From Modestobacter altitudinis (GTDB lineage: Bacteria; Actinomycetota; Actinomycetes; Mycobacteriales; Geodermatophilaceae): DNA of 42,891 bases. How positions within the stretch are numbered: position 1 is the first letter of the stretch; every line of letters begins with the position of its first letter. Below the pieces are notes generated by a model, which did not search any database, was not told the DNA's origin, and saw only the letters and a program-made list of their open reading frames with translations. Shown piece by piece: positions 26,356 to 37,601 of the stretch. A program made the position numbers and the translations under genes. The DNA lies in contig NZ_SJEW01000042.1 of assembly GCF_005930475.1 (NCBI RefSeq), positions 1-42,891 of the forward strand, given 5' to 3'.

Positions 26356-28131
<1,776 letters not shown>

Positions 28132-28159
28132 TCAGCTGGCGCCCGGGGACGCGCGATCA

Positions 28160-28200
28160 CCGCGGCGAGGGGGCCGACCTAGGAGAGGCCCTCGCCGCGG
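28160..28200 (-). promoter_or_regulatory. Attenuator hairpin of leuA
   Basis: On the minus strand CCGCGGCGAGGG (28200-28189) pairs perfectly with CCCTCGCCGCGG (28171-28160), a 12-bp stem with a 17-nt loop. The 5' arm lies inside the leader peptide gene, right after its Leu-Leu-Leu-Ile codons, and the stop codon lies in the loop. A ribosome stalled at the Leu codons would block the stem; one released at the stop would let it form. No U-tract follows, so the terminator role is inferred. Confidence 0.6.
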
Positions 28201-28226
28201 CTGATAAGCAGGAGGCTGCCGCGCAC
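28179..28226 (-). CDS. leuA leader peptide (15 aa, leaderless)
   Basis: GTG at 28226 opens the peptide VRGSLLLISRGEGLS with a TAG stop at 28179. Three consecutive Leu codons (CTC CTG CTT) and one Ile form the control region, fitting a leucine gene. No Shine-Dalgarno is seen. Instead TACGGT (TAnnnT) ends 6 nt before the GTG, which would put the mRNA 5' end at the start codon. It lies 89 bp upstream of leuA and 20 bp after the XRE gene. It is too short to be certain without expression data, but the codon run, hairpin and promoter agree. Confidence 0.7.
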   Translation of the reverse strand: MRGSLLLISRGEGLS

Positions 28227-28232
28227 ACAGGA

Positions 28233-28238
28233 ACCGTA
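28233..28238 (-). promoter_or_regulatory. -10 element of the leaderless leuA leader transcript
   Basis: TACGGT on the minus strand (28238-28233), 6 nt before the leader GTG. No clear -35 is seen; the upstream sequence lies in the end of the XRE gene. Confidence 0.5.
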
Positions 28239-28246
28239 GCAGCGCG

Positions 28247-28888
28247 TCAGTCGACATCGCAGCCGCAGGCGCAGTCCGGTGCGTGCAGCCGGTCCCGGTT
28301 CTCCTGCTCGTCGTACTCGCAGCCGGCAGGACAGGTGCAGTCGACCTCCCAGTCCGGGCGAAGCGGGGAGCCCGCCGCCAGCCGCGCCTCGTGCCGCACC
28401 TGCCGGCGGGCGGCGTCGCGGCGGAGCGCCCCCGCCCGCCGCGTGGCGGCGCGCTCGGCGAGGGAGTCGCCGGCCTCCGGCACGTGGTGGTCGGCCGAGG
28501 GGCTCGCCTGCCGCCGCCAGTCGCGCAGCGAGCGGTCGCGATCGAACGTGTAGCGCGGGTTGCGCAGCCGTGGGCGGTGCGGACCTCCCCACCAGTCCTC
28601 GTCCCCGTGCCGGGTGTCCAGGTGAGCGGGGAACAGTCGTCCGCCGGCATCCCGGACCGCCGCCCCGGTCATCGCGACCAGTTCTCTGCCCTCGTCGTCG
28701 AGAAGCGCCACCCGCAGCCCAGCCACGGCGCCGATCAGTGACAGTTGGCTGACGCGGAGGTCCCCGCCGGCCTCCGCGCGGCCGATGGCGGCTGGGGCTA
28801 CGCCCGACGCCCTGGCCAGCTCACGCTGGGACATGTCCACGAACCGCCGGATGCGGCGGAGCAAGCCGGGGAGCGTCTGGTCGGCCAC
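28247..28888 (-). CDS. XRE-family DNA-binding protein with Cys-rich C-terminal tail
   Basis: A 213-aa protein. The N-terminal 60 residues are a Cro/C1-type helix-turn-helix: LLRRIRRFVDMSQRELARAS, then GVAPAAIGRAEAGG. The middle (about 60-180) is charged and Arg-rich, with WWGGPHRPRLRNPRYTFDRD, not recognised. The tail holds six cysteines in two close clusters, DCTCPAGC and DCACGCDVD, separated by about 20 acidic residues. They could bind zinc or another metal, but I know no named domain for this. The GTG at 28888 starts VADQTLPG; an open frame continues upstream without HTH similarity. Immediately downstream is the leuA leader promoter, a possible but untested target. Confidence 0.75.
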   Translation of the reverse strand: MADQTLPGLLRRIRRFVDMSQRELARASGVAPAAIGRAEAGGDLRVSQLSLIGAVAGLRVALLDDEGRELVAMTGAAVRDAGGRLFPAHLDTRHGDEDWWGGPHRPRLRNPRYTFDRDRSLRDWRRQASPSADHHVPEAGDSLAERAATRRAGALRRDAARRQVRHEARLAAGSPLRPDWEVDCTCPAGCEYDEQENRDRLHAPDCACGCDVD

Positions 28889-29007
28889 GACCCCAGCATC
28901 TCGGCCCGCCGGGGGGCGTGACCCTCCGCGGCTGGAGCGGTGGACCACCAGGTGCGCTGGGGACGGCGGCGCGCCGACCGGCCGACCCAGGAGGTAGGGG
29001 TCAGCAC

Positions 29008-29045
29008 AGTTGAGCTCTGCTCCAGATGTGGAGCAGAGCTCAACT
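29008..29045. repeat. 38-bp inverted repeat in the XRE/PLD intergenic region
   Basis: Two perfectly complementary 16-nt arms, AGTTGAGCTCTGCTCC (29008-29023) and its mate (29030-29045), flank AGATGT. It lies 60-100 bp beyond the phospholipase-like gene's stop and about 120 bp before the XRE start, both on the minus strand. It is less GC-rich than its surroundings and not followed by T residues. Terminator of the PLD gene or operator of the XRE gene are both possible. The rest of the 217-bp gap shows nothing. Confidence 0.6.
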
Positions 29046-29105
29046 CTCCGCAGGGCACCTCCCGGCCCGGTACCCGGGCGTGGGCCGAACCGCGGGCGGC
29101 GGAGT

Positions 29106-37490: not shown

Positions 37491-37496
37491 GGTGGG

Positions 37497-37570
37497 TCGG
37501 GGTGACAGGATTTGAACCTGCGGCCTCGTCGTCCCGAACGACGCGCGCTACCAAGCTGCGCCACACCCCG
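37497..37570 (-). tRNA. tRNA-Pro (anticodon CGG)
   Basis: A complete 74-nt cloverleaf can be folded on the minus strand. The acceptor is CGGGGTG/CACCCCG with discriminator A. The D stem is GCGC/GCGC. The anticodon stem CGTCG/CGACG closes loop TTCGGGA, giving anticodon CGG for CCG codons. The T stem GCAGG/CCTGT carries TTCAAAT. The 3' CCA is not encoded. CCG is a heavily used Pro codon in this GC-rich genome. Confidence 0.97.
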
Positions 37571-37601
37571 AGGTGCGTCGACAACTGTAACCGACGCCCT
37601 C

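Follow-up and report, generated by a model that had tools for sequence, protein, structure and literature searches.

How is leuA controlled in Modestobacter altitudinis, and does the short reading frame in front of it take part in that control? The stretch of DNA analysed, 42,891 nt in all and called the window here, carries leuA on the minus strand (26356..28089). The gene is identified by its NCBIfam match as 2-isopropylmalate synthase: its product scores 899 bits against NF002991 (cut-off 455) and is also above the cut-off for TIGR00970. It is the gene that the element described below is predicted to control. An earlier note, made from the sequence alone, had proposed that a leaderless leader peptide and one overlapping hairpin form a compact attenuator at this place.

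The leader locus and its start

All features of the locus lie on the minus strand. The leader ORF (28179..28226, 16 codons including the stop) opens with GTG (28226-28224) and encodes VRGSLLLISRGEGLS, in which Leu5-Leu7 are specified by the putative sensor codons CTC CTG CTT (28206..28214). Within codons 9-13 lies the 5' arm (28189..28200) of the stem P2, whose 3' arm is found at 28160..28171; 28200-28189 and 28171-28160 form a perfect 12-bp stem around a 17-nt loop (28188-28172). The stop codon TAG (28181-28179) is located in this loop, and its final G doubles as base one of a pseudoknot helix, P3, formed by GGTCGGC (28173..28179) and GCTGACC (28130..28136) with one G-U pair. Further downstream, six bases before the leuA start, is the leuA Shine-Dalgarno sequence AGGAG (28096..28100), with which CTCCT of the Leu run (28214-28210) could form a third helix, P1. 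The -10-like hexamer TACGGT (28238-28233) stands exactly 6 nt before the GTG, and the window sequence has no Shine-Dalgarno-like run ahead of that codon. The parts on which the earlier note was built (the GTG frame on the minus strand, the hexamer at 6 nt with no Shine-Dalgarno, the perfect stem with the stop codon in its loop) are thus all present in the sequence and at the right coordinates.

General-purpose searches do not single out this locus. Single-sequence folding of the 137-nt leader gives no unusual stability (z -0.89), a generic promoter scan of the region finds no sigma-70-type hexamer pair, and an Rfam search of 27500-29000 returns three matches up to E 5, none of them to a leader family. 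A consensus scan of 27900-29100 detects 0 intrinsic terminators with a U-tract, which speaks against a terminator-type attenuator. A minus-strand ORF (28247-28948) ends 20 bases before the leader GTG; the -35 region of a leuA promoter would consequently fall inside it, and read-through transcription with a longer leader may occur. Elsewhere the window contains a tRNA-Pro (CGG) gene (37493-37571, minus strand).

The leuA loci compared comprise 80 from named records, 21 from the genus and the window itself as L001. The genus loci come from 21 of 23 genomes, the window's own genome included, so the window is counted twice (L001 and L082); tests on 77 loci draw on L002-L082. L038, which has no upstream start, was left out of the test on codons and -10 spacing, and L042 out of those on Shine-Dalgarno pairing and P3 score. 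In 63 of 77 loci a possible in-frame start is preceded, at 4-9 nt, by a TANNNT motif, where shuffled flanks give an expectation of 5.3; a suitably spaced Shine-Dalgarno-like motif accompanies only three of these 63. The distance from TANNNT to the nearest ATG or GTG peaks at 6 nt (49 loci) and 7 nt (17 loci) among 95 loci. In Streptomyces lividans TK24 the homologous peptide LeuL1, MRFGLLLLSCRGEGL (15 residues, before leuA), is leaderless by RNA-seq start sites according to the accessible part of PMC8079986, and a uORF before leuA of Mycobacterium abscessus is among the ORFs from ribosome profiling in the accessible part of PMC4974804. Because the -10 spacing is conserved, transcription most likely starts at the leader GTG and the peptide is most likely read without a Shine-Dalgarno sequence. 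The leaderless leader peptide can accordingly be regarded as probable, on the strength of a -10-like motif kept at 6-7 nt and of a homologue with a mapped start.

Sensor codons and helices in the relatives

The Leu run, together with an Arg-x-Glu/Gly pattern, is anchored upstream of leuA in 97/102 loci. The five loci lacking it are L083 and L101, which lie at a contig end or are without the N-terminus, L049, for which only 190 nt were available, and L062 and L078. Genus loci with enough upstream sequence carry the same or a similar peptide. Among 77 loci, codon -5 of the run specifies Leu in 76 and codons -4 and -3 do so in all 77. Third bases vary at codons -5 and -4; codon -3 reads CTT in 73 loci and CTC in four. 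Since CTT makes up 5.2% of leuA Leu codons, 3.8 CTT would be expected at this position. The codon that follows the run is far less constrained (CGC 26, AGC 22, ATC 19 and others in 96 loci), and even inside the genus Ile is replaced by Thr in L089, L093, L096 and L100; the earlier suggestion that Ile belongs to the sensor is thus not borne out. After the Arg, at a codon within the stem, Gly (43), Asp (43), Ser (8), Val (1) and Asn (1) occur in 96 loci, and the opposite arm of P2 changes with it so that pairing is kept. A run conserved at the amino-acid level next to a freely changing stem codon argues that selection maintains codons for translation in the run and RNA structure in the stem. From these substitution patterns, selection is seen to act on Leu as an amino acid in the run; with third positions varying under a fixed residue, a translated, leucine-sensing leader peptide is supported.

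The stem itself retains at least 8 of its 9 core pairs in 95/96 loci, the exception being L042, whose 3' arm lies beyond the range searched. For the covariation analysis 77 sequences were aligned (alignment A1), omitting L015, L017, L023, L024, L042 and L081, which have odd spacing or long loops, and most of the near-identical genus loci. In this alignment 43 cells are changed on both sides of P2 against 14.9 in shuffles (0/500), and 91.2% of cells are paired against 88.1% (0/500). The signal is weaker on two of the five measures, the number of pairs with changes on both sides (5, reached in 11/500 shuffles) and that of further pair types (12, 45/500). The pair closing the modelled helix at its outer end (G28201-U28159 in the window) is unpaired in 60/77 sequences, so the stem is one pair shorter in most relatives. 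Judged by these substitutions P2 is conserved as an RNA stem with compensatory change, and aligning relatives, the check that had been proposed for this locus, finds both the Leu codons and the covarying stem.

P3 is likewise present across relatives. At least 5 contiguous bp are found in 66/77 loci while the sequence varies, and the native score of 16.18 exceeds that of permuted partners (14.42, 0/200) and of shuffled sequences (12.67, 0/200). In two genus loci (L093 and L100) the 3' strand reads GCTGGCC, a one-sided change that keeps the pairing. The span between leader start and P3 end has a median of 87 nt (IQR 83-92; 76 loci, window included), with 97 nt in the window and 81-83 nt in three Nocardia loci.

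For P1 the window itself offers only 5 contiguous bp (CUCCU/AGGAG), about what any anti-Shine-Dalgarno-like run would give; helices of 11-12 bp are present in L025, L031, L063 and L065. A test of Leu-run/Shine-Dalgarno pairing that allowed loops (76 of the 77 loci) was significant, yet one of its control windows was clearly significant too, and it was therefore replaced by a test of contiguous helices. In this second test (77 loci) the pairing with the locus's own leader reaches -12.96 kcal/mol against -11.18 kcal/mol with the leaders of other loci (z -6.4, 0/20000), and the co-adaptation with the Leu run peaks at the leuA Shine-Dalgarno window. The control windows give z -0.8 (n 52), -0.9 (n 10), -2.6 (n 77) and +1.3 (n 73), the third of these, just inside leuA, being reached by 110/20000 permutations; significant control windows mean that relatedness contributes to the co-adaptation signal. 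Masking of the Shine-Dalgarno sequence would thus fit the leuA loci at large and appears weak in the window. The earlier view that only one stem is needed does not survive these results, as the loop of P2 is one side of the conserved pseudoknot P3 and, across relatives, the Leu run and the leuA Shine-Dalgarno sequence show co-adaptation.

Distribution and copies before other genes

A covariance model of the P2 core and the run was used for genome searches. At E <= 1e-4 it matches 284/296 genomes of the class (281/291 high-quality genomes and 103/106 genera), and over the phylum 32/197 genomes at E <= 0.01, of which 20 are below 1e-5 and the rest doubtful. Some weak matches (L143, L145 and L226) look like chance. 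One locus of the same phylum and another class (L144, genome G050, family f19) has the leader SLLILRCRGAAL before leuA at a model E of 6e-4; the leuA there is, from the look of its sequence, presumably of a different type. This leader may represent a remote relative of the element beyond the class. The genome of the window has one convincing copy, that of leuA; its second match (C94) has E 0.01, and the 600 nt upstream of leuB show no element.

Two or three matches occur in 82/296 genomes. From 80 of these multi-copy genomes 114 elements, a subset of the copies, were classed by their first tblastn match downstream (two further genomes, with L134 and L140, are outside this set), which gives leuA for 60, leuB for 34, leuC for 13 and none for 7; these figures are not frequencies, since the 114 include first as well as extra copies. 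Four leuA copies (L214, L247, L256 and L280) could not be framed, leaving 56 usable. A Leu-Leu-Leu run is present in 51/56 usable leuA, 13/13 leuC and 0/34 leuB-side copies, and codons -6 to -3 include Val or Ile in 4/56, 2/13 and 32/34, respectively; in the leuC and most of the leuA cases the Val or Ile precedes an intact Leu run. The two leuB-side exceptions, L225 and L320, keep the stem and have lost the sensor run; in L225 one gene, which we take from the look of its sequence to be ROK-like, separates the element from leuB. P2 has 8 or 9 of its 9 pairs in all framed leuA, leuB and leuC copies, a retention that is partly by construction because the search that yielded the copies used P2 and the run as its model.

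The leuC copies (L204, L206, L267, L270, L272, L277, L287, L289, L297, L315, L317, L322 and L323) all belong to one family, f83, are Leu-only and lie directly upstream of leuC. In a leuA paralogue locus (L219) the frame read has no Leu run. A group in family f2 (L221, L248, L250 and L254) has Leu/Val runs before small proteins. Three of these proteins were searched: that of L221 is a stand-alone LeuA_dimer domain (PF08502, the LeuA allosteric domain; E 2.4e-6, above cut-off), that of L248 matches the same domain below cut-off (E 0.065), and that of L250 has no family match.

In the leuB-side leaders GTA accounts for 29/51 Val codons and ATT for 17/31 Ile codons; in the leuB and ilvE genes GTA and ATT stand at 1.8% and 2.1%. 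Beside leuB, 32 of 35 leuB-side elements (a raw count), for instance L222, L210, L220, L135, L133 and L304, are followed by a small ORF that is about 20-45 residues long and has the core (L/V/I)Q-x-x-(L/M)D-x-R-(D/E). The 35 are the 34 above plus L304, which has the small ORF and no leuB match in the 2.4-kb stretch taken. A strong hairpin follows the small ORF in L133, L135 and L210, and in seven loci (L133, L135, L210, L220, L222, L224 and L227) leuB has, by eye, its own TANNNT 6-7 bases before the ATG; taken together these features suggest that the target of the Val/Ile/Leu element may be the small ORF and not leuB. The examples searched have no Pfam or NCBIfam match. Pairwise comparison of six f69 sequences counts 89 synonymous against 112 nonsynonymous codon differences over the whole length, and 59 against 45 over the 16 C-terminal codons. 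No clear purifying signal emerges overall, and the case for the small ORF rests on its conserved motif.

The leuB-side position also bears on P1. The positions of the Leu run show no co-adaptation with the Shine-Dalgarno sequence there (z -0.3, n = 30), and in the first ten non-leuA copies the pairing is marginal (804/20000). Pairing with the Shine-Dalgarno sequence is consequently not a universal part of the element. Overall, we lean somewhat towards a view of the LEU element, known since 2005, as a branched-chain module in which a leaderless start, a fixed stem and a fixed pseudoknot would be combined with swappable, rare-enriched sensor codons. These would be Leu-only in front of leuA, leuA paralogues and leuCD and of the Val/Ile/Leu type in front of a branched-chain-controlled microprotein beside leuB.

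Mechanism, rival readings and known systems

The reading we favour for leuA, with a probability of roughly 0.6, is that a ribosome senses leucine at the run of the LEU element, that its stalling turns the gene on, and, less surely, that the off state would be reached mainly by a block of the leuA translation start. Stalling, direction of control and the blocked step are what we infer from the codon run, P2, P3 and -10 spacing established by comparison. A ribosome short of leucyl-tRNA would stall on CTC-CTG-CTT and occupy this run together with the beginning of the P2 arm, which would prevent both the P2-P3 pseudoknot and the pairing of the Leu codons with the Shine-Dalgarno sequence and so leave leuA on. 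With enough leucine the ribosome would reach the stop codon in the P2 loop and then leave; the pseudoknot could fold, the Leu run would be free to pair with the Shine-Dalgarno sequence, and leuA would be off.

The main rival keeps this sensor and changes the output. Once free of the ribosome, the pseudoknot would end transcription early (in a Rho-dependent or pause-assisted form, without a U-tract) or protect a short 5' fragment, and leuA mRNA itself would fall with plentiful leucine. We consider this unlikely, though still the best placed of the alternatives. Leader RNAs of 85, 65 and 45 nt for leuA of Mycobacterium tuberculosis (accessible part of PMC3526491) point to a step in transcription or decay and can be set beside the 87-nt median from leader start to P3 end in the 76 loci, but the match of 85 and 87 nt may be coincidence. 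P2 is shared with the leuB-side copies, where Shine-Dalgarno pairing is unsupported; against this, no intrinsic terminator was found in the window, LeuL1 of S. lividans reportedly has no typical Rho-independent terminator either (accessible part of PMC8079986), and co-adaptation with the leuA Shine-Dalgarno sequence is not expected from such an output alone.

A second rival, which we regard as improbable, takes the LEU element as a binding site for a regulatory protein (orthologues of ML1624 were suggested) and denies the peptide a sensing role. It draws on an argument from phylogenetic pattern and on a reading of Streptomyces coelicolor mutants (accessible part of PMC1262725), and the very strong conservation of the RNA would suit it. 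It does not account well for a run conserved as amino acid and not as bases, for its change to Val/Ile/Leu in leuB-side copies with P2 unchanged, or for the conserved start codon and -10 spacing. That the run is kept as an amino acid and exchanged when the controlled genes change is the reason for favouring ribosome sensing, and the Val/Ile/Leu codon swap favours it over the protein-binding model of 2005. The possibility that the leader ORF overlaps a conserved RNA structure by accident and plays no part in leucine control is already disfavoured and very remote: we know of no experiment in this genus, which leaves such a reading some room, but the frame and sensor codons are conserved before leuA in 97/102 loci and the model matches 284/296 genomes of the class.

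Ribosome sensing has a classical parallel. The enteric leu leader has tandem hairpins, a U-tract terminator and a leader peptide started from a Shine-Dalgarno sequence, whereas no U-tract terminator was found in the window. The rare sensor codons of the leuB-side leaders recall the rare Leu codons that serve as the sensor there (accessible part of PMC1183508). Further related systems are the ilvBNC operon of Corynebacterium glutamicum (Morbach 2000), a leaderless attenuator with a terminator hairpin in the account of the review PMC9834717 (accessible part), and the mycobacterial polycysteine leaderless ORFs (Canestrari 2020, as cited in the accessible part of PMC13236596). Like the window leader, both have no Shine-Dalgarno sequence and carry codons of the product amino acid; unlike it, they use other amino acids, and ilvBNC has a terminator hairpin. 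LeuL1 of S. lividans and the window leader are both 15-residue peptides before leuA with no typical terminator found; the window leader differs in its GTG start, and its leaderless start is argued from -10 spacing.

The element in the window is the LEU element with a leaderless LeuL-type peptide. As described by Seliverstov and others in 2005 (accessible part of PMC1262725), this element comprises a pseudoknot and, before leuA, a leader ORF containing a run of Leu codons, and occurs in most actinobacteria; the Leu-run leader ORF, the pseudoknot (P2 and P3 in the window and its relatives) and the broad actinobacterial occurrence are all shared. Leaderless leader peptides with attenuators had also been described in actinobacteria, and the combination of leaderless peptide and hairpin is not, as the earlier note had supposed, new. 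The base stem of Leu codons and leuA Shine-Dalgarno sequence proposed in the same paper has only 5 bp in the window and is supported over the 77 leuA loci and not on the leuB side. The paper also states, from earlier S. coelicolor mutants, that the effects of leader changes did not fit classical attenuation, and concludes that Leu-codon mutations do not influence regulation (accessible part of PMC1262725). The mechanism was left open then and the Leu codons were doubted as the sensor; protein binding was favoured in 2005 and ribosome sensing is favoured here.

Copies that share the RNA stem and differ in their sensor codons, before genes with different products, amount to a natural experiment on this question, performed by an apparently leaderless control element with no terminator found and present in almost all genomes of the class that were sampled. 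The small ORF beside leuB offers a lead to a protein linked to branched-chain amino acids and, if the assignment is true, would be a microprotein controlled by these amino acids and absent from the family libraries searched. The open-access literature, in which unnamed sequences escape search, yielded no report of the Val/Ile/Leu version, the leuCD copies or the small ORF. In 2005 the element was known from leuA and one transposase (accessible part of PMC1262725); here it is found also before leuCD and leuA paralogues and, in the Val/Ile/Leu copies with a short ORF, beside leuB, and these copies are what is new.
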